Below, one piece after another: positions 16,111 to 63,900 of a stretch of DNA of 64,000 nt. The notes beneath the pieces were generated by a model. It searched no databases, was not told the origin of the DNA, and was given only the letters and a program-made list of their open reading frames with translations. The position numbers were made by a program, and so were the translations under genes. The stretch comes from Chondrosia reniformis (lineage: Eukaryota > Porifera > Demospongiae > Chondrillida > Chondrillidae). Each line of letters begins with the position of its first letter. Position 1 is the first letter of the stretch. The DNA lies in the NCBI GenBank assembly GCA_947172415.1, contig OX359190.1:3534001-3598000 (forward strand). Reading direction: 5' to 3'.

Positions 16111-19100
16111 TTACTTGTCCTCTTGTAGTTTCTGCAGAATCTCTTCATGTATTGGATACTCTACAGATGTATCATGAAGCACTTTACAAAACAGCCTCAA
16201 TGTCTCCTCTCTACCAGTACTCCGGAGGTGATGGAGAAAGATTTCATTCGATTCTTCTCCGCTCTTTGCTGTTTTGATTTCATCGCGTAGCTTGTCTGTA
16301 ATTAGTGGCTTTCCACCCACTCCCTGGTACAGTTCGTTGACTATGTTGCGAATGACGAGGTTTTTAATAAGGAAAATCCAGTGCTTGGCCCGTAAGGTCT
16401 GCTTCCAACTGCCTCCTTCACCATCACACTCTCCTGAGTTGGCAGATGGTGTTGGCTGTCTAACAACTTCAGGTCCTCCAGTACAGGTAGACTGGTCTTT
16501 ATAGAGAAGGAACTGGTCTCCATCAAATTCCACTTTACCAGCCACGCTCAACTATACAGAAGAAGATATAAAAATCAATAAATTACTTGTGTTGAATAAC
16601 ATATTAAATAGAGTCAGTAGCAGCAAGATTAGCATGTAAAATAGACAGTCTATATAGTCAATAATTGCTACATTCATGATAAGGTCTATTCTGTTGAATA
16701 CACAATATTATGCAAACTTACATTGGCATCACTGTCCTGTTCCTTAGCAACCCAAACAGACTCTCTTGGAGTAAGTCCAGTCATCTTGTTCAGTCTGGTA
16801 CACAGACCCTTTCTCCGGTTGCCACCTTCAAATCGAAGAAGATGCAAACTGGAGCCCTTACATTTCTGGTGACTGCAAATGACCCCCTCCTCTAAAGTTG
16901 CTTTCTCTTTGACAAGAAACTCTGCTCCAAATACTATCTCACTCACGTAACAAATGCGTTTGTACATCTCCCTTCTGATGTGCCTGCAGAGCTCAGTCAA
17001 GGATGGCTCTGTGTTAGGAAAGTCCTCAGGAACCAACAGTTGGAGTTGAATGAGGTCTTCCTTTTGGGAAAGAGCAATGTGGGCATCTTCTTGTGTGAAA
17101 AAGAACTGTGTACAGCCTGATTGGTTGTGATAGTACCTCCACTGTCTTCCTCTCAGCTGGATTGGGCTCACTTCCTCCTCCTTGAGTGCTTGTCTGCCAC
17201 TTGCAATGTCCACAGCCAGTCTGTGGAATAGACCAGTCGGTACACAGCTGTACCTGTCAAATTCGTCGGAACAAAATAAAAAAGTGAATCCCAAAGTAGC
17301 CACAGATGCTTCTAGCAGGTGGATCTGCCTCTCGGGAAGGGCTGCTGGAATGAAGTAGCGTGTCTCCTTCTCTCTCACTTTGGCTGCAATACCAATTTTT
17401 ACTAGGACCTCCAGGAGCCATCTTGTTGGGATGTCAGCATTGATATCTAGCTGCTGAAACAAGGGCTCAGAAAGAGCTTCAGTAATCACACCTTTTTCAA
17501 TGAATTTGTGTAGTTCTGGACTTGAAGATTCAATTGGGCCATACTGGACTGATAGCACTTTGGAGATTTCTTTGTACAGAAAGGTTGCATCTGTACAGAT
17601 CCACTGCTCTTTGTACTCACTCTCACTCAGATAAAAGTACAAATAGAACCCAAGGCTGTGAAACAGGTTCAGCAGTGCAAGGAGCTGTCCATCGGCATCT
17701 ACCGGTTGGATGTATTGGCATCGGAGGCAAAACTCTTTCAGTTCTGTGAACTTCCACATCTTCTTTTTCGCAATAGATGTGATTAGTTGCAGGCAGAACC
17801 AAATTTTTGGGACCTTCAGTGTCAACTGGTAGTTGGCGTCTGAAAGTAGAGAACGAAGGACATTTACAGCTTTACGAGTGTGCTCCTTCAGTTTGCTGTC
17901 TCCCTGTAGCTGACTGTCCACTACAAAGTAGCTACCAGCACCTTCGTAGACAATTGCTTTTGGGGGGGAAACCCTGTTGCCATCATAAGGCTTGTTGTTC
18001 ATTTCCTCTAGAACCTTCTTGTTGTCGTCCAGTAGAGCTTTTTTAGCTTTGGAATCTTTGGGAAGATGGGAAAGGTGAGTGCCAACAAGGAAAATGCGAA
18101 GTTGGGGCTCATTAGGCATGTCAAATGCTTTCAACTGCCGCTTGCTCTTCATTGACATTGTGTAGGCAGCTGTAATGGACTCCTTCATCAATTCCCAGGT
18201 TGAACGGCTGTTGGCTCTTGTCTCTTCAGTGGCTCCATCTCGACAGAAAGCATTGACATACGGATCTGTCAACCTCTCTGAAGCTTTAAAGACGTGCAAG
18301 AAGTTGCAGGGAAAGTCCAGTAGGAGTGGAAGGATATTCTGAAAGGAGGGCTGGCCTCCTGTGTCCAGGAGGTAAATGAACGTACACTTCTTTTCATCAA
18401 ATTCTGCTTCAGTGGAGAGATTGTGCTTCAGCAGGAAGCTGTCCCTGGCTTGCTCCAGCAGCTCTAGTGGGTCTTGCACTGCTAAAGCCTCAGTGGTATC
18501 ATATCTAGGAGGAGAAGGGGAATTGGAGACATCGGTTAGCAGCTTGGTCGTCTCACTGGCTACCTCTGTTGTCTTGGTGATACCACCAGGTAAAGTGGCA
18601 TCATTAGATGAAGCCTGTGGAAGAGAGGCAGGTGGAGCTTCTAGAGTGCTGCCTGGAAAGGCCTTCCTTTTCTCCATTTTAACCTTTGAAATAAGCTGCC
18701 CTAGCTTTTCATCTGTTAAAACTTTCCAGGAAGAACCAACTGCCAAACATTTAATGAAATCATACTTCTCTTCCTCTCCCTGGCTCCCCTTCCCCTGGCC
18801 TTCCTCTCCCTGGCTCCCCTTCCCCTGTCCTTCCTCTCCCTGGCTCCCCTCCCCCTGGCCTTCCTCTCCCTGGCTCCCTTTCCCCTGGCCTTCCTCTCCC
18901 TGGCTCCCTTTCCCCTGGCCTTCCTCTTCCTGGCTCCCATTCCCCTGGCCTTCCTCTCCCTGGCTCCCCTTCCCCCGGCTTTCCATTTTCTGCTTTTTTT
19001 CTCTCTGGTATTCCTCCAACCGATCTGTTCTTCCTTTTGTGTCTCCATTGTCAGCAATTGTGGCCACTTCAGGAGCTTCCAGCACTCCAGTGCTAGTTTT

Positions 19101-19325
19101 GTTTTCTCTTGCTGTGTTGTAGAGCAGGTAGTGCTTCAGCGAGGTTTTACCAACACGCGAGCCTCCTGTGAAGATTGCACGACTAATGTTCACTTCAACT
19201 GAACCATGTCCTTTTATGGCTTCTCCATACCACTTTGGTTCCTGCATGGCATACCAAGAAGAGATAGCTATCATAGACAATTGATATAAAGTGTAATATG
19301 TGTTTACAGTGTAATACACATGCAC
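16111..19325 (-). CDS. ROC-COR GTPase with C-terminal CARD
   Basis: Two exons, 19325-16722 and 16551-16111, join in phase across a GT-AG intron to give up to about 1,014 residues. A P-loop (GGSRVGKTS, about residue 54) is followed by a Lys/Gly/Glu-rich 10-residue repeat, then a G3-like motif (DTGGQPSFQN) and a G4-like motif (LVGTHLSHL). A COR region follows (WFCLQLITSIAK ... FHSLGFYLYFYLSE ... WICTDATFLYKEI). The second exon holds a CARD-like six-helix fold (KHWIFLIKNLVIRNIVNELY ... LFCKVLHDT). ROCO proteins are GTP-regulated dimeric scaffolds, and a CARD would recruit caspase or adaptor partners, so an apoptotic or innate-immune role is inferred. The first codon is unsure: an acceptor-like AG (ATGCAG before EPKWYGEA) suggests an upstream exon. 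The CARD call rests on pattern only; DEATH or DED is the alternative. Confidence 0.8.
18768..18985 (-). repeat. 30-bp coding minisatellite in the GTPase exon
   Basis: About seven in-frame copies of a 30-bp unit encode GKGSQGEEGQ and variants. They sit between the P-loop and the G3-like motif, an unusual place for a low-complexity insert, and form a charged loop likely to vary in length between alleles. Confidence 0.9.
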
Positions 19326-24102: not shown

Positions 24103-24753
24103 ATAACCTGCATGAATTAAATCTTTGTGGCCTTTGAAGGCTGGCACAGTGGTATCTTAGTTGTGGGTACATGGTCTACTTTTCTAAAACACGGTACCTC
24201 TCTCAGTCAAATGATCTGACTAGTACTATGACAAAATATTCACTGCTAAATGGCTGTAAGCATAAAGACTTAATTGGTAGCAATTTACCCTTTCTGCTGG
24301 TGGCAAGTGGCTCAACAAACAATCTATAACTAATCACTTGTACGTACACAGGACGAGAAATTAATATTCTACAAATTACATGTAAGAAACCGTCTTACAA
24401 CTTGGCCCTTTTATAAAACGTACACACTCTACTTTCTCCTTCAAATGCAAAGAGCGGCTGATACAAGAAGACTTCTAACAGTCCCCGTTAGTGGAAACTA
24501 TATAGTTAACACTTAAACTCGTGAGAGCGTTCATAGGACACACTTGTACGAGAACTTTAAAACAATACAAGTCTTATTAGCATTGACAGGCGCTTTGTGT
24601 ACACTGAGCACACAAGTTAGGTGACTCTAACGAAGGAAATAAAACCTTCTAATGTTTCTATTTGAAGGAGAAAGTGCATGCAAAGCGCATAACGAATGTT
24701 AACAAGACTTGTAATGTTTTAATGTAAAGTTTTGTAATTAAGTAAGTTCTTAC
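24103..24753. other. Region downstream of the kelch exon
   Basis: No exon recognised. It should hold the rest of the kelch gene (minus strand) or its intron. TGGCACAGTGG at 24,143 resembles a tRNA A-box, but no matching B-box was found. Confidence 0.35.
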
Positions 24754-25640
24754 CTCAACTGCAATATCATACTGTACAGCTCTTGTCTGATATCCTAATC
24801 CTCCTCCAATGGTAAGAAATGTAGTTCCGTTGAGGGAAGCCGTACAATTGTTGTAAAAAGATGTTTCTTTACTAATTCGTGTCCACTCCTTCTTCTCAAA
24901 AATAAAGATTCCTCTTGGACCTACTACGACTGGTAGGGTGCTGTATTGTAAAAGTGAACTCCCCTTTGGTGCATTAAGCCTATCCCACTCTGGTGCATCC
25001 TTATTGAGCTCATCCCAGTGATGTACATCATAAATGGTTAGTGAAGCCATAAAATTCTTCTTATTCATTCTCCAAAAATATCCATCCCAGTAGACGTAAA
25101 TGTATTCACCACACAATACCATGTGGTGTGCTGATAATGGTCGAGGAAGTTTAAGATTCGACTGGATCCACTTTCTATTCTTAATATCCAAGAATTCAAT
25201 TGTGTCTAATACTCTGCCATCTGCTCCACATCCTCCAGACACAATTACTAAGTCTCCAATAGCAAGAACTCCTGGCCAGGTTCGGGCAGTATGCATTGGA
25301 GGATATAGCTCTAACCATTCTTCCCCTGTCAATGTCACTAGATTGCTTGTACAAGTGTGATAAGTGTCTCTACCTCCTATCAGAGTTAACTGATCTTTAA
25401 TGATGGTGGCTCCATTGCGAGAATACGGAGATGGAGGTAGTGTTGACCATTTCTTTGCTACTACATTGTATACTTGAACGAACCGTTCAGATACTGTATT
25501 TTCACATAATCCACCATAGACAAATACTCTTTCATTAAGTACAATTGCCTTACTGAATTGAGTTCCAATAGGCGCTTCCGGTATTTCAGTTGATTTGAGG
25601 ATGTGACTTCCTCCAGCTGTCAGGAGGTCACTTCGAAATA
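24754..25640 (-). CDS. Kelch-repeat protein, one large exon
   Basis: An 887-nt exon between an AG acceptor (25641-25642) and a GTAAGA donor (24753-24748) is open throughout. It shows about five to six kelch blades with the usual marks: VFVYGGLCENT, LTLIGGRDTYHT, LVIVSGGCGADGRVLDTIEF, and TFLTIGGGLGYQ, with Trp-containing strands such as KKWSTLPPSPYSRNGA and RKWIQSNLKLPRPLSAHH. Kelch blades form a beta-propeller for protein binding. No BTB, BACK or kinase domain lies nearby, so the overall protein cannot be classed, and 5' and 3' exons remain unplaced. The exon sits between a small non-autonomous element and the foldback element at 25.8 kb. Confidence 0.8.
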
Positions 25641-25825
25641 CCTAATTAGAGACAAGAAAGAAAAGATAATATTCACTGTTTGGAGGAACTGAATGACATG
25701 GAAGGAGCAAGTTCTGTAGGAGCTTATTCACGGTATAAGGACACTTTGAGGCCCGTAAGTACCATAAATCTTCTTGTCTAAATATACTTAACGTGAATGC
25801 ATGGCTCATAGTTTAATAATGCTTA

Positions 25826-26672: not shown

Positions 26673-26680
26673 TCAGTTCC

Positions 26681-26785
26681 GGCCGGGACTATTTCACGGA
26701 ACGGAGCGGAACGGAACGGAACGGAACGGAACTGAACGGAACGGAACTGGGGTCTAAAATACGGAACGGAACGTATACGGAATAG
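26681..26785 (+). repeat. Left terminal inverted repeat of the transposon
   Basis: GGCCGGGACTATTTCACGGA, then about nine GGAAC-type units with scattered substitutions, then GGGGTCTAAAATACGGAACG. It pairs with 31390-31457. Confidence 0.9.
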
Positions 26786-26977
26786 AATAGGTAGAGGGAG
26801 GACACACCGCACGGCGATTCAAGTACTGCGTAAAGCGCAATTACATTGCATCCTGCTGATATAATAGCTAAACTGCGCATGCTCACAGCTGGTACTGACA
26901 CGTGCTCGTTCAGGCATCGCCCCCTTCGTACGTGCTAGCCTGAACTGCAGTAGCTAGCTACTCCCATTCAGCGGAGT

Positions 26978-29687
26978 ATGAGCAAGCTCACTGTGTACCG
27001 AGTCTGTGCCACACCCTTAGCTATATCGGAGGTTGTAACCCTGCTGCAGAATCCTCCAGAGGACGGAGTGTCAAATCTTCCTCCAGCTACTCCAAAGGCT
27101 GGGGAGATTTACATTTACAAGAGCGAAGCAGCCAAAGAGAATGGTATGCAATATCAAGTTAGCTATTTGAAATTATTATAATTATAGCTAGATTTCAACG
27201 TTTAGTGTGGGTTCATGCATTTGGCTAAAGCATAGATTCCAATACCAGTGCATGTGTGCACCTATGATCAAGCATGTAGCTGGTAGTGTGGTTGAGTAGA
27301 TATGCCTACTTTATCATTCATTATATGTTGTATATTTCCATCTAATTGCTAAGCAGCAATACTTCTACTATAATCTGTATTAATTAGTGTGCATTGATGT
27401 GTGTATCTCTCTAGAGGACTGGCGGTGTGACCAGTACCGTTGGAGCAACCAGGGTGTACGACGACTCCCCAGGAAGGATCCCCGTGTGAAGAAATCCTAC
27501 TTCCATGTGGACACTCCAAACGGTCCCTCAAGAGAGTTCGTGAAGCATGCATATCAGCTGCTACCTCCTAACAGTGGTAATGTGGTTTTACTGCACTACA
27601 TGGGAGATGAGAGGGCAGCAGTGTCATTCACACATGGAAATGCAAAAGGCCTTGAAAGAGCGCATATTAGGACATGCCCTTCAGTGCTTAGAAGCATGGA
27701 GAATGAATGCAACCATGCAACCCCAGCTACAGTCTACAGGAAGCTTGTAACTGACGTACCACCCCCAATGCACATGCCTGTTAAGCAACCACGTGACACA
27801 AAACAGGCCAAAAACATCAGGTCTAAGCTGCTAGAGAAGCACAGGCTATCCCATGATGCCCTGTACAATCTGCACGAGTTAGCCATGGACCTGCCTGATT
27901 TTGTACACTCCATTCGTACTCACCCAGACCTGGTGTGTGTCTGTGGCAACAAAGCCCTATTTGCGGAGTTGGATAGAGTGCTAATCATTGATTCTCCCTC
28001 GGCCCAGCTCCTATCATATGACACCACATTTCAACTGGGTGACTTCTATGTGTCGACACTCGCATTTAGGCACACACTTTTCAAGGAAGCACCAGTCATC
28101 CCAGTTTGCTTCCTTATACATGAAAGGAAATTTGAAGCCTGCCATGAAGAGCTTTTCAGCATTTGCTGCAAGCTGATGCCTTCTCTGCGCAAAAGCACAA
28201 AGCCTATAGTGACCGATGAAGAACAGGCTTTTGCAAACACCATCAGGTGCCATATGTCACTGACACATGTCCAATGCTGGAACCATGTCTTCAGGGCAGC
28301 AATCAGGTGGCTTCGTAGTCATGGTGCTCCAGCCCAGGATGTAGCTGTGTACCTCTCTGATGTGAGAGACCTCTTCCATCTTCCAACAGAAGAGGAATAC
28401 AGCCTCACGCTAAAGCGAATGGCATGCAAGTGGAGTGCCCCTTTCTATGAGTACTACAGCCACAACATACATTCCGACGTACATGCAATTGCACGGTGGG
28501 CAATCGAGCCATTTGGTGTTTATGACCCCTACAGTGGTGTTACAAGCAATCAGGCAGAAGGGCTCAACTATGTACTGAAGCACCTGCGGGAATGGCATGA
28601 GAGCCCAGTTGATTGCATGGTCTTGGCCCTACACTATTTGCAAGGGTACTACCTGGTGGAAATCAGCCGTGGTAAACAAGGGCTAGGCAACTATCACATG
28701 CATTCCAAATTTTCATCACTGGTGCAAATGGAACCACCCCTGATTTCAGACCAAAACATCTATTCACCAGAGGAAATAGTAGGCCACATCAAGGAAGCCC
28801 GTGCAACTTTGCCACCCCAACCTGCTGCTGTGAGCTCACATGAGAATAGCAGCCAACCTATCATCCAACTGACCCAATTGGAACGAGCGAGACGTGCAAT
28901 TGAAGAGAACAAGGTCAGCGTGGACCCAAAGCTTCACACATTCACCATCATGGGTACTGAGCGTCTGCATGTTGTCACACTGTTTCCTAAGGAAACCTGT
29001 TCCTGCCCTTCCACAACAGAATGTTACCACATTTTAGCAGCTAAAACGAGTATCGGGCAAAAGGACCAAAAACAGCGATTAAGACGACTTAACTTAACCC
29101 AGCTTCGCAGAAATGCTCGTAGCCGGAAGGACAAGAAGTCTGGTAGGAAGCGGCCACGACCTGGTGACATGGACATCCTTCCAGCCCCAGATTCACTTGC
29201 AGCTGCAGATGCAAAAGTGCAAAACACGATCTGCCAGGGTACCACTGACAATGGTTGCAATGTTAGGGTCATACAAGGTGACTTAACAGAATTTTCAGCA
29301 GATGTAATGGTGAATGCTTCTAATGAGCAGCTCAGGCATGATGGAGGTATTGCAGAGATCATCTCCAGGAAAGGTGGCCCCATTGTTCAGGAAGAATCAA
29401 CGAAGTACGTAAAGAGTGCTGGGCAGCTGAGCACTGGAGATGCTGTCCTTCTCAAAGGAGTAGGAAATCTCCCCTGCAAAGCCATAATTCATGCAGTTGG
29501 TCCTCGTTGGAATGGAGGCCAGAAAAATGAAGAAGCTTACCTTGTCAGGACAGTTTACAACAGTCCATTGGAAGCATCTAAACACAAATTCACGTCAATT
29601 GCATTCCCTGCAATTAGTTCAGGGATATTTGGTGTCCCAATCCCTATCTGTGCAAAGGCAATGATGGAGGGAATCAGATCAGCTTAA
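26978..29687 (+). CDS. MULE/SWIM transposase fused to a macro domain
   Basis: Exons 26978-27143 and 27415-29687 join in phase (…AAKEN/E/DWRCDQ…) for 812 residues. The RNase H-like transposase core shows the first acidic residue in LLSYDTTFQLGDFYVS, a second in KPIVTDEEQAFANTI with CWNHVFRA after it, and the Glu in GVTSNQAEGLNYVLKHL. A SWIM-type zinc motif follows (CSCPSTTECYH). From about residue 660 a macro domain begins (VRVIQGDLTEFSADVMVNAS, NEQLRHDGGIA, AIIHAVGPRWNGG, AFPAISSGIFGVPIP) resembling PARP9/14-type macro domains. Macro domains bind or remove ADP-ribose. The ORF stops in the last macro helix; the +1 frame continues it (ESDQLKLITIMLLQEQHIAT), so a 1-nt frameshift near 29,668-29,675 is likely. 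The ATG at 27387 is intronic; 26978 is preferred. Confidence 0.85.
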
Positions 29688-30030
29688 GTTAATCACCATC
29701 ATGCTACTGCAGGAGCAGCACATCGCCACATTTGTACAAGCTGCTGGAATTGTCCTGAAGAATATTGTCCTCACAGCAGATGTCAAACAAGCAACTGCGT
29801 CTGGCAAGCAAATGAAACTGCTGACTGCAGCAACAACAAGCAGGGACAGTGACAATGAAGTACAGGAAGTTGATGAACGACCTGCACCAGTACCAAATGG
29901 GGATGATGAAGAAGTTGACAAACCAGTGAGACAGCTACTACCACCTGCACCAGTACCAAATGGGGATGATGACGATGAAGTACAGGAAATTCATGAACCA
30001 GTGAGACAGCTATACCACCAGCACCAGTGA
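29671..30030 (+). CDS. Macro-domain end and acidic linker ORF of the transposon
   Basis: This frame supplies the last helix of the macro domain and then a spacer with two copies of PAPVPNGDD(D)EEV in an acidic, proline-bearing context (EVQEVDERPAPVPNG). By comparison with the first repeat copy (CAGCTACTACCACC) the second reads CAGCTATACCACC, one base shorter; the frame is lost there and the third ORF starts. The three ORFs were therefore probably one polyprotein of roughly 1,200 residues, or the assembly has two single-base errors. Confidence 0.65.
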   Translation, partial: ESDQLKLITIMLLQEQHIATFVQAAGIVLKNIVLTADVKQATASGKQMKLLTAATTSRDSDNEVQEVDERPAPVPNGDDEEVDKPVRQLLPPAPVPNGDDDDEVQEIHEPVRQLYHQHQ

Positions 30031-30848
30031 CAAACGGGGGGAGTGATCCTATTGATGTGGACTTGTATACTTGTGAGCAGCCACCAGCACCATACTGGAT
30101 TCAGGATTTGGAGCTTCGTCAGCAGGATAAAGCACAGCTGACTGAAGGGGCCTGGCTAACAGACAAACATGTGAACTCGTGCAACAAGCTGCTAAAGCAA
30201 CAGTGCCCCAACCAGAATGGTCTCCAGGACACACTTGTCCTGGCTAAGAAGTTGGCGTGGCGCTCTAACATGAAGGACTTTGTCCAAATTGTTAATGTAA
30301 ATAATCTACACTGGGTCTGTGTAGCAAACATTGGCTCCCCAGACAACACCATCGATGTGTACGACAGCTTGCCTGCCAATTCACTCGGATCCCAATCCCT
30401 ACGGGAACAGGTTGCTGCTATAATACGCACTAGAGATAAGTTCTTAGAACTTCGTTTCATCAATGTGCAGCGGCAGTGTGGCAGCAGTGATTGTGCATTA
30501 TTTGCAATTGCAAATAGCACAGCACTGTGTCTGGGCAAAGATCCCCATCAGATACGTTCTGATCAGAAGCAGATGAGGCAACACCTTAAGGAATGTTTTG
30601 AGGCAGGAGCAATGCAACTTTTCCCTGAGCACAAGACTGCCCCAAGGGTGAAAAGGCAACGTGTCTGTGGTGAAGTCACAGTGGCCGTGTACTGCTTGTG
30701 TAGGCAAATATACACACATGCCAGTAACATGATCCAGTGTCACAGGTGCAAGGAATGGTATCACGATAACTGCATCCCAAATATTGGACCACAGTTTTGG
30801 AATACAAGTCAAACATGGATTTGCCACACTTGCACCATCCAGTCATGA
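30027..30848 (+). CDS. C48 (Ulp1/SENP-like) protease with PHD finger
   Basis: A 273-residue ORF. The protease part has a substrate-side motif GAWLTDKHVNSCNKLL (about 40), the catalytic His in NNLHWVCVANI (about 94), the Asp in DVYDSLPANS, and the Gln/Cys pair in QRQCGSSDCALFAIAN (about 152); all four expected residues are present. A PHD-type zinc finger follows (YCLCRQ...MIQCHRCKEWYHDNCI...WICHTC; C4-H-C3 pattern, residues 222-270). Ulp1-like enzymes cut SUMO or related isopeptides, and PHD fingers read histone H3 tails. It has no ATG at the first codon shown (GTG), consistent with being the end of a longer frame. It could help release the transposase from SUMOylated chromatin, or target insertion; that is inference. 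Confidence 0.85.
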   Translation: MTNGGSDPIDVDLYTCEQPPAPYWIQDLELRQQDKAQLTEGAWLTDKHVNSCNKLLKQQCPNQNGLQDTLVLAKKLAWRSNMKDFVQIVNVNNLHWVCVANIGSPDNTIDVYDSLPANSLGSQSLREQVAAIIRTRDKFLELRFINVQRQCGSSDCALFAIANSTALCLGKDPHQIRSDQKQMRQHLKECFEAGAMQLFPEHKTAPRVKRQRVCGEVTVAVYCLCRQIYTHASNMIQCHRCKEWYHDNCIPNIGPQFWNTSQTWICHTCTIQS

Positions 30849-31389
30849 CTTAATTGCAATACTCCTTCAAACAGTACCAACTACCTATACCTACACGGCT
30901 ACGTACGTTTGATTCATTAGCTTTCATTGTATACAATTACAATAACAGTCCACACTTTAACTTATATGTAGCACTATTTCCACAACACTGAGTAATTGTT
31001 GTAAGCATGCCCTTGATACAAACTGAAGTTATCTAAGTGTAATTTAAAATCATGAATTTAAAATATTATGCACTGCTATTGTAACTGGACCATGGCTGGC
31101 TGTGCTCGCGCTAAGCGTACGATTTGATATATGGACGCCAAGGTTGGGTCCATCCTACAGCATGTGCCCTGCAAGAAAGCGGTGGTTAGACACGTATACG
31201 TACTGAGGTACGTAGCTAGCTAGCTAGCTAGAGGCTAGGGGAAGACAAACTCCCACTAGTACTACCATCACCTAATCTAACCAACAGCCATTACCTGAGC
31301 CCTGAAAGAAAGCGCTTCACTGCTCCTCATCACTCATGCTGCACCAACGTTAACAACAGGGGTCTCGGAGCCTGCATAACATGTGCATA
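30849..31389. other. Transposon 3' non-coding region
   Basis: No ORF or RNA recognised between the PHD stop and the right terminal repeat. A GCTAGCTAGCTAGCTAG run lies at 31,215, and short CpG-bearing words occur. Confidence 0.4.
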
Positions 31390-31457
31390 CGTTCCGTTCC
31401 GTATTTTAGACCCCAGTTCCGTTCCGTTCCGTTCCGTTCCGTAAAATAGTCCCGGCC
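31390..31457 (-). repeat. Right terminal inverted repeat of the transposon
   Basis: Reads ACGTTCCGTTCCGTATTTTA, GACCCC, a GTTCC array of about five units, then AAATAGTCCCGGCC; inverted relative to the left end but with about four fewer array units. TCAGTTCC follows directly. Confidence 0.9.
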
Positions 31458-31699
31458 TCAGTTCCTCGCTTTCTAATTTGTCCCCTAAAAGGATATGAAT
31501 CGCGCGTGGTTCTTCGCCTCTACGACTGGTTTGGTTTAGGTTTTACATGGACCCAACAACTGCAATTGAAGTACACGAGCCAGCCAAGTATTCCTTTCTA
31601 AACAACCCCAATTGAACACAAACTAGTCTCTGAATGTATGCCAGTTAGTCCCGACAGCGCAGGTTCACTTACAATATCTGTGGCTATTTTCTCAATAAG

Positions 31700-60910: not shown

Positions 60911-63900
60911 TGTGACATATGTAAAGAACTGTTGCTAGGCTAGCTACTTAAAAAAAAGATTTGATTACGTCATTATATACTGGTTTTGACTGCCTTGAAC
61001 TCTAGTGTATGTATGATGTTTTTTGGTAGTAGAGAGTATCTTTTCTGTATCCTTGATAAGTGGATTACGATTAACTTTACGAGTGCTCATTCGACAAGTC
61101 GTTGACCGTGGCATGGTTGCGCTAATATAACAGACTCGAGAGGAGAACGTTACACTTGGGGGCCTGTCCAGGATCTGAAATTCCTGTTCAAGAGCTGAAA
61201 TTCCTGTTCAAGATAGCAACGGTGGAGATATCATTATTGAATCGGAATCCGCGACCTTGTTAGCAAGCGATATGTCGAGAATGGAAGCGTTATCGTTAGA
61301 ATTGGAGACTGTCAAGGGAGAATTAGGAAAGTTAAAGTTAGAGAACGAGAAATTGCGTAGCCATAACGCCGAGGGGGCCTTGCTCGTCGACGCACAGACG
61401 GAGGCCAAGCAAAACCAAGAAATGTATGAGAAGGCAGTAGGAGATATGGCTGAGAAGGAGGAGGAAATTCGCCGACTTCGAGACGAATTAAAGATCGCCG
61501 AAGATCGACTACAAAAGGCAGTGGCTGACCACTCGAGGATTCAAGAGGAGGTTCAGGGAGTAAGAGATCAGGCTGAATTGGAACTGCATCGGGCATTGGC
61601 CAAAGAAAGGGCCAAATGGGAGGAGCGAGAAGAAAGGCTGGCAAGGCAGCTGAAAGCTCAGACTGTCCCAGATCCTGTTCCTGTGCCCACACTTCCACCT
61701 TTGACAGGGGAAGAGGAAGTTCCAGAAGTGGGGGATCTCGTAGAGGCAGAATCTACCAGGCCAGTAATGCCTCAAGGAATCCCACCTTTGGCTAAGTTCA
61801 CCGGCGAGGGGCATTCTTCCGAGGAGACTTTCCAGGAGTGGAAGGAGCAATTTGAACTGGTTGCTGGGTTATGCCAGTGGAGTAGCCAGACTAGGCTGAT
61901 GAATTTGGTAACTCGATTAAGGGGCCAAGCATACGCATTCTATCGCTCCTGTACACTGGCTCAGAGGGGTAACTATCTGACGCTCATGACAGAGCTGGAG
62001 AAGAGGTTCACTCCCGTCACCATTCCGGCCGTACAGGCAAGCATATTCCATGAGAGGCAACAGGGAGCAAAGGAATCTGTGGATGCCTATGCCCAGGACC
62101 TGAGACAACTCTTTCTTAACCAAAAGCTCAGCAGGGAAGTAAAGAGGCCGAGGAAATGGGTAAGTCTGTTTTATCCTCACAATTCGTAGCAGGACTGAGA
62201 GCAGATCTCAAGAGCAAGATAGCCGGGCTAGAGGGAGACATGGAGAATCTCTTGGTCCAAGCCCGCTTTGAGGAAGCAAAACTGAGGAGTTTTGGAGAGA
62301 ACGGCGGGGTGAAATTATATACAAAGAAGGTTTCAGCCGTACAGGATACCAGGAAAGATTCAACAGGGGTTCAGCCACCCAAGGCACCTAATCCACAGAG
62401 GCCGCAGACACAAAGTGTTACAGCTGTAGTGGAGTTGGCCACTTTGCTAGGAGTTGTCCTCTAAAAAAGAAGAGAGGGCCTGTGGAGGCCAAAGGTCAGA
62501 CCACCCCAGTGGCTGTTGTAGTTCCAGAGGAAAATCAATTAACCTCCACTAATAAGTCCACAGGAAATTGGCAAGATGTGGCAATAGAAAAGGAGCTGAC
62601 TCAGTTAAAGGCTACTCTGCATGGAGTGAAGGCAGCTAAGGAAGCCAGTGATGTGCAGTTAGGAGAAATCCCAAAGACAGTTGTCTCTTTGGAGGGTGTT
62701 CCAGTGGAAGCAATGATAGATACTGGATCTCCGGTGAGTATTGTCTCCTTAAAGTGCCTGTTGAATGTATTGCTTTCCAGGAAGGCTGTGGATCAAACTA
62801 TTGAAGGTTGGATCCAGGAAATTACCTCCAGGATGAAGCCCACAGCTGTGGCATTGAAGAGTTATAGTGGGGATCATCTTCCCATTGTTAAGCAAATGCA
62901 GGTGCAGGTGTCGCGTAAGGGAAGACATGGTAATGTTTGGGTGCAGATACAAAAGGATGCTCCTGTTCATTTTCTTCTAGGTACAGACCTCCAGCCCCGG
63001 TTGGGTCTCCTGGTGAGGGAAGAATCCGACTGTCAGGTAGAACAGCGTGTTGGAGCTGATGATTTGTAGATAAGGTGGCGTCTATAGGGCAGAAGACAAA
63101 AGCCTTGGATGCTCATGCGAATAGTTCACTCATTGAGGGTCAGGTGTGCCTCTTGAAAGCAGTAAAATTACCTGTTGGATTCTGTGGGATGCTTCCAGTG
63201 GAAAAGAAGGGTCCTGGTGGAGAGGAAGTAGCTCTGTTTATTCCAAAGGCTGACTTGGTTCAAAGGGATGGATTTATACTTGAAGAGGTGCTTATGGAGA
63301 CACAACCACGAAGCATGGTTTCAGTGAGGAATACTGGATCAGAGGCCATTGTATTGGACCAGGGACAGGTATTAGGTTCCCTGGAGGCAGTGACTATACT
63401 TGCGGAAGAGGCTGCAGGAGACGAAAGAAAGTCTGATCAGATCCAAGCCGATTGTTGCAGTATCCAGGGATCTTTGCCATCAGACTCGGTGGAGCGAGTG
63501 CAAGAGTTAATGGAGAAGCTTTTGCCAGATTCCAGGAACATTGGGGAGATTGGAAAGGTGCAACTGCAACAGTTAATAAAGGAATATGGAGACATATTTG
63601 CAATGAATGACACTGAGCTGGGATGTGCAGAGGATACTGTGCACTCCATTGATACAGGTGAGCACATGCCAATTAAACAACACCCTCGTCGTATACCTTT
63701 TGCATTAAGGGGGGAGGTAAAGAAAATGATTGAGGGGATGTTGCGACAAGGGGTCATCAAACCATCCCATAGTCCTTGGGCAAGCCCGATTGTTCTCGTG
63801 GCCAAGAAGGATGGGGGTACGCGATTTTGCGTTGATTACAGAAAATTAAATGCTATCACCAAAATGGATGTCTATCCCCTACCCCGTATTGATGACATGC

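Follow-up and report, generated by a model that had tools for sequence, protein, structure and literature searches.

The 64,000-nucleotide stretch of the Chondrosia reniformis genome analyzed here (contig OX359190.1, positions 3,534,001 to 3,598,000; hereafter the window) contains a complete cut-and-paste DNA transposon at positions 26681-31457, with the coding order transposase, SWIM-like motif, macro domain, C48 protease, and PHD finger. Both ends of the element were inverted repeats whose first letters, GGCCGGGACTATTT, were found at 26681 and, as the reverse complement, at 31457. The inverted ends were complementary at 98% across 56-nt arms and at 95% across 42-nt arms, and CGGAAC units were repeated in both (Table 1). 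The exact octamer TCAGTTCC lay on either flank (8/8 bases), forming a target-site duplication (TSD); the chance of an 8-base match at fixed ends is about 1.5e-5 if equal base frequencies are assumed. The element had three features of the MULE superfamily, namely a Mutator-type DDE RNase H transposase, terminal inverted repeats (TIRs), and an 8-bp TSD. The TSDs of MULEs measure 8-11 bp (PMC6446971).

A second copy (L063) was found 1.2 Mb away at C2:4778862-4783633, with 97.6% identity to the window copy over 4784 columns. It was flanked by its own duplication, TTCATAAC/TTTATAAC, in which 7 of the 8 bases were equal, and it contained the macro domain, the C48 protease, and the PHD finger. The initial annotation, made from the window alone, had described a DNA transposon with inverted ends and an 8-bp duplication and had proposed a search with those ends for other full copies; the exact TSD, the TIRs, and copy 2 agreed with it. 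The order of modules that it gave was also confirmed, but in the window the C48-PHD part is not in the frame of the macro domain. Two frame breaks placed the end of the macro domain, the linker, and the C48-PHD part of the window copy each in a different frame. The window differed from copy 2 by 26 absent nucleotides and an extra TA (Table 1), and copy 2 had an extra AT and an extra CATG at places other than the window indels. Every stretch from exon 2 onward was open in at least one of the two copies, so that their common ancestor most likely had one reading frame. The 14-nt element end, with up to one mismatch, occurred at 11 genomic places, of which 4 were the ends of the two copies, 1 was a related end, and the other 6 resembled the element no further. 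The existence of many copies, or of short derivatives with these ends, was rejected, as the reversed control occurred at 10 places. The lone related end (L072/L077:68-143; C3:2497765) was 83% like the left end of the element over 76 nt and had similar repeats; no partner end, transposase, or other element domain was found within 7 kb of it, apart from a single 14-residue, chance-like PHD match.

The coding sequence was predicted to start at the ATG at 26978, before the start of the main open reading frame (ORF), and to be interrupted by an intron (Table 1). The ORF at 27384-29684 (767 aa) encoded a MULE-like transposase, then a SWIM-like CxC..CxH stretch, and then the macro domain. When exon 1 and exon 2 were joined, the product matched Pfam CG-1 at 23.7 bits (cut-off 23.5; E 4.2e-5; profile positions 10-114 of 116), and exon 2 alone gave no CG-1 match in the Pfam scan. 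CG-1, the DNA-binding domain of CAMTA factors, was clear in the relatives P0060 (36.5 bits) and P0086 (26.9 bits), and 9 of the 30 aligned rows matched it at E ≤ 0.01. The element is thus predicted to have a spliced N-terminal CG-1 (CAMTA-type) domain, which scores just above the Pfam cut-off. No paper on CG-1 or CAMTA fused to a transposase was found among the papers listed, as judged by titles and the beginnings of abstracts. This domain went unnoticed in the initial annotation, and so did the intron, the frame breaks, and the derivation of the macro domain from a host gene.

On the element itself, the MULE model reached 15.1 bits, under its cut-off of 27.6, and the SWIM model 11.8 bits, under its cut-off of 19.6. 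The SWIM model matched 6 of the 30 aligned rows at E ≤ 0.01, and the four ligand columns of the SWIM-like motif (Table 1) were at least 90% conserved. For the core, matches were obtained to Mutator models and to a Mutator/IS256-type RNase H fold; the modelling covered residues 168-459, and the CG-1 part lay outside it. The putative MULE and SWIM assignments come from the relatives and, for the core, also from the predicted fold. The candidate catalytic set of the core (Table 1, numbered by ORF residue) was our own choice.

The macro domain was detected by Pfam with an E-value of 1e-30 (106.6 and 112.3 bits against a cut-off of 22). The closest solved chains by sequence were those of PARP14 (3vfq and 3q6z), and the element domain scored 114.6 bits against the first macro domain of 3vfq and 48.2 bits against the second. 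The best alignments to the KH-macro proteins P0089, P0090, P0092, and P0099 ran from copy-2 residue 608/616 to residue 802/803 and then stopped, and such sharp ends point to a bounded capture of about 190 aa. The macro tree had 132 rows once short matches (under about 110 residues), frames containing stops, and duplicate rows had been removed, and the careful tree used 45 of them. The four element macro domains formed one clade (99/95) within a clade of 15 rows (100/99); the remaining 11 were P0089-P0099, at most 74% identical, and 9 of these 11 had a PARP14-type KH domain by Pfam. The nearest macro domains of the genome itself, in the PARP14-like genes L010-L012, were 49-55% identical and were placed elsewhere in the tree. 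Origin of the macro domain from these genes was rejected, with p-AU 0.003 when L010-L012 and P0115 were forced together with the element, a group named after the tree had been seen. Coronavirus macrodomains scored much lower against the element domain (best nsp3-type chain, 2.3e-19). Trees placed the domain among animal PARP14-like macros; of the comparison with PARP9/14/15 and viral macrodomains that the initial annotation had suggested, the viral part was made by PDB scores only. Judged by its sequence, the macro domain comes from a host gene of the PARP14-like KH-macro type, and a single capture is the simplest account. Because it is nearer to genes of other assemblies than to those of its own genome, it would have been captured in another lineage and then transferred, or the donor gene or paralogue would have been lost from this genome.

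The macro DNA of the element matched 2 places in the genome. None of the 26 further genomic macro matches lay within 36 kb of a C48 match, among the matches listed (both lists are lower bounds). Six near-identical stretches with a 386-391-aa macro frame (L014-L018 and L020) were also seen at about 3.66-3.72 Mb of C3 and 3.62-3.67 Mb of C11. They were 96.5-98.9% identical to L014 over 2.2-2.8 kb, lay on both strands of two chromosomes, and their matches began near the same point; they form a recently amplified PARP14-like macro family, possibly a mobile one.

The ORF at 29997-30845 matched Peptidase_C48 (7.1e-5; 23.2 bits, cut-off 20.7) and PHD (2.8e-5; 24.5 bits, cut-off 24). Of the candidate His/Asp/Gln/Cys residues that the initial annotation had assigned to the protease, H105 was invariant and Q160 and C166 were at least 90% conserved across 22 rows, but D123 was not among these columns. 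The structure model of the C48 domain (22 rows, pLDDT 85.9) had SENP5 and Ulp1 as its best folds. The PHD finger was nearest to those of DIDO1, PHF2, and PHF8, which, like BPTF, are H3K4me3 readers. The comparison of its aromatic cage relied on the residues that we take to form the cage of PHF2. The coordinates of all parts of the element are given in Table 1.

Table 1. Positions of the parts of the element in the window.
Feature	Position	Strand	Remark
Target-site duplication, left (TCAGTTCC)	26673..26680	.	
Left terminal inverted repeat, 96 nt	26681..26776	+	10 CGGAAC units
Predicted exon 1, first half of CG-1 domain	26978..27143	+	spliced product CG-1 23.7 bits
Predicted GT-AG intron	27144..27414	+	also in copy 2
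Second half of predicted CG-1-type DNA-binding domain	27415..27604	+	end computed from residue 118 of spliced product
Putative Mutator/IS256-type RNase H transposase core	28008..28712	+	candidate D213, D278, E392, CWNH (C298, H301)
SWIM-like zinc motif	28941..29051	+	C539, C541, C547, H549
Captured macro domain (copy-2 residues 616-803)	29229..29763	+	26 nt absent after 29673 in window, frame changes
Acidic/proline linker	29770..30049	+	three PPAPVPNGDD-like repeats; TA at 30011-30012 not in copy 2
C48 (Ulp1/SENP-like) protease	30057..30611	+	candidate H 30309, D 30363, Q 30474, C 30492
PHD finger	30693..30833	+	
Right terminal inverted repeat, 71 nt	31387..31457	-	7 CGGAAC units
Target-site duplication, right (TCAGTTCC)	31458..31465	.	

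The relatives of the element were investigated by a protein search, which gave 87 matches at E ≤ 0.001 with domains taken from precomputed Pfam. Macro was present in 3 of them (P0002, P0003, and P0004, clusters of 9, 13, and 29 member sequences), PHD in 7, and CG-1 in 3. P0002 was the match to the window's own frame. P0003 ran from CG-1 through the core to the macro domain and ended there. P0004, a predicted protein of 1015 aa, contained the core, the macro domain, C48 (exactly at the cut-off), and PHD; its first 37 or so residues corresponded to another frame of the window's DNA, and the CG-1 part is therefore absent from it. Copy 2, P0003, and P0004 together show this architecture to be a property of the element. 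The initial annotation had considered that other copies might lack the macro domain or PHD, but copy 2 and P0004 hold macro, C48, and PHD, and P0003 holds the macro domain but ends before C48; for the subfamily, this outcome favours the initial annotation. P0003 and P0004 probably come from outside this species because they were absent among the macro matches of the genome, a lower-bound list. P0115, an ENA protein, lay at no distance from the genome's L011 macro domain in the tree, and the ENA proteins may thus include a same-species assembly. Among P0003, P0004, and the two copies, identity was 81-91% in the macro domain and 82-89% in the RNase H core, with 71-81% in the spacer 480-520 and 68-89% in a second, short spacer. 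The pocket motifs were unchanged in P0003, P0004, and copy 2. Three sequence lineages (window/copy 2, P0003, and P0004) have thus retained the macro domain together with these motifs.

The matches at 57-62% identity had no macro in the Pfam column, but many of them ended 23-46 residues behind the SWIM tail, so the absence of the macro domain there is weak evidence. Nor was it found in L023, P0048 (Mytilus edulis), P0053, or P0074, all of which extend to C48 and/or PHD. P0048, P0053, and P0074 reached PHD, and P0074 also had a C48 match under the cut-off; L023, in this genome, matched the CG-1 region, core, SWIM, C48, and PHD in order at E ≤ 0.01, but not the macro domain. The core, C48, and PHD are thus widespread in a broader lineage of animal Mutator-like elements, in which the macro domain alone is unusual. 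A single open frame at L041:1501-3576 (-) (C6:2990467-2994231) encoded a DDE_1 transposase, presumably pogo/Tc1-like, with C48 and a PHD just under the cut-off (22.2 of 24 bits); since this transposase is unrelated, the C48/PHD pair seems to be a module that different superfamilies have in common. A search with the C48-PHD part of P0004, whose reach was poor, gave 3 matches including itself. P0066, recorded as an Ulp1 isopeptidase of a symbiont metagenome-assembled genome (Candidatus Thiodiazotropha), was a MULE relative of the animal lineage with 35% identity, and is probably host DNA in a bacterial bin.

Compared with known systems, the element resembles the MULE/MuDR superfamily in its Mutator/IS256 RNase H fold, TIRs, 8-bp TSD, and putative SWIM-like motif, but differs in carrying an N-terminal CG-1 and a macro domain. 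Mutators from hydra, lancelet, and plants have been described with Ulp1 domains (PMC2836005), and the MULE-like Rehavkus has a transposase with a PHD finger (PMC6446971, whose main text contains neither 'macro' nor 'peptidase'). The main text of a survey of arthropod MULEs (PMC13359780) mentions no PHD, macro domain, Ulp1, CG-1, SWIM, or C48. Ginger1-9_HM of Hydra, like the element, has a C-terminal Ulp1 protease and PHD in its transposase, and the published Ulp1/PHD alignment includes Mutator transposases; however, the Ginger core is Gypsy-integrase-like, and 'macro domain' does not occur in the text of the paper (PMC2836005). The animal CG-1/MULE relatives P0048, P0053, P0074, and P0087 were 33-62% identical to the element over 20-73% of the query and had CG-1, MULE, C48, and PHD of varying detectability, but no macro in the scan. 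The element macro shares its family and pocket motifs with macrodomain 1 of PARP14 and PARP9 and with coronavirus nsp3 Mac1, but it is fused to a transposase, and its activity is predicted. Fungal DNA transposons with a TET/JBP dioxygenase (PMC12730594) are similar in that this enzyme targets an epigenetic mark of the host, but the enzyme, the mark, and the transposon lineages are different. The C48-PHD pair, which the initial annotation had treated as part of a new combination, is common in this genome and has been published for Ginger1-9_HM, as PHD has for Rehavkus. Its statement that no standard element is known to add both a macro domain and a PHD finger holds for the macro domain (3 of 87 matches, one the window's own), but not for PHD. 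Full-text searches showed no report of a DNA transposon with a macro domain among the papers listed, PMC8195603 included, in a library that lacks most subscription papers and Repbase. What is new in the element is the macro domain, a PARP14-type domain captured by a MULE.

The gene is predicted to encode CG-1, RNase H transposase, SWIM-like motif, macro, C48, and PHD in a Mutator-superfamily cut-and-paste element. PARP14 macrodomain 1 (3Q6Z) is reported to hydrolyse ADP-ribose that is linked to glutamate or carried on single-stranded DNA or RNA, and coronavirus Mac1 to reverse PARP14 marks, viruses carrying macrodomains against host PARPs (PMC10499325). The best explanation, in which we have moderate confidence, is a transposase that, at H3K4me3 chromatin, also clears ADP-ribose and marks of the SUMO/NEDD8 type. 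Going beyond the fold assignments, we infer that the transposase combines two erasers of host marks with one reader. CG-1 and SWIM would bind the CGGAAC-repeat ends, and the RNase H core would cut and join them, leaving 8-bp duplications. The macro domain would take off mono-ADP-ribose that host PARPs had attached to the transposase, to chromatin, or to DNA ends, which would keep ADP-ribose-dependent silencing or clean repair from halting the reaction. The C48 domain would take SUMO or NEDD8 off the same complex, and the PHD finger would keep the complex at open promoters, on nucleosomes with H3K4me3, biasing the landing sites. An action on ADP-ribose and SUMO marks of host chromatin had been proposed in the initial annotation; it is plausible and is sharpened by the kinship with PARP14 macrodomain 1, from which an activity would be predicted. 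More tentatively, the element could be the transposon counterpart of coronavirus Mac1, in which a stolen PARP14-like ADP-ribosyl hydrolase, welded to a transposase, undoes PARP-based restriction. It would then have spread between animal species, since the macro domains found in its own genome are all more distant from that of the element than genes of other assemblies are.

Several observations weigh against an active eraser. No copy was seen intact throughout: both genome copies are broken, P0004 starts in another frame, and P0003 stops after the macro domain. Between the two genome copies, which may be decaying, silent and replacement changes numbered 0 and 4 in the macro domain, 6 and 16 in the first ORF as a whole (pN/pS 0.78), and 2 and 3 in C48-PHD, so that no constraint was visible between them; a selection estimate was dropped because the changes were too few. 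Since relatives do without it, the macro domain is not needed for transposition in general. The C48 fold matches include NEDD8 and ubiquitin proteases, and MTF2, which is among the PHD matches, is to our knowledge not an H3K4me3 reader.

Alternatively, the macro domain might be a reader: by binding to chromatin or repair proteins that are ADP-ribosylated at breaks, it would anchor the transposase complex there for target choice or repair recruitment. Macrodomains 2 and 3 of PARP14 have shown no hydrolysis and are described as readers, and recruitment of PARP9 to damage sites needs its macrodomain 1 (PMC10499325); PHD is also a reader. However, the element macro fits the first macro domain of 3vfq, the hydrolase, far better than the second, and we consider a pure reader unlikely. 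It is still less probable that the macro domain is a passenger, a captured host exon in an in-frame fusion that is tolerated without use to the element. Mutator-like elements tend to pick up fragments of host genes (PMC6446971), only two copies were found in this genome, and these show no silent-site bias; but the domain is in frame with core-like identity and intact pocket motifs in three lineages, and the clusters P0002-P0004 have many members. It is very improbable that this is not a mobile element but a host gene caught in a single copy or a chimeric host gene that was domesticated: the few copies and the single gene with an intron would suit it, but inverted ends and duplications occur at two sites, the frame breaks differ between the copies, and the same fusion occurs in proteins from elsewhere, a single-copy trapped gene being rejected by copy 2, P0003, and P0004.

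If the macro domain works, ADP-ribosylation would be a host weapon against transposons or a checkpoint on them, and the element offers a direct test of that idea through the effect of single-domain removal on transposition. The element also illustrates domain capture clearly, the donor family being known and the boundaries sharp, and it links a lineage of transposases with a CAMTA-type CG-1 domain. The macro domain beside a SUMO-protease-like domain and a histone-reading finger suggests that the element may edit host damage or defence signals when moving.

Three other ORFs were noted in the window. The upstream end of a Kelch-repeat ORF at 24658-25641 (-) lay about 1 kb from the element, and the insertion may sit in the 5' region of this ORF. 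The ORF at 16686-19325 (-), of 879 aa, gave a weak COR-A match under the cut-off, and the ORF at 62392-63069 (+) contained a CCHC zinc knuckle and is possibly a retroelement gag-like fragment.

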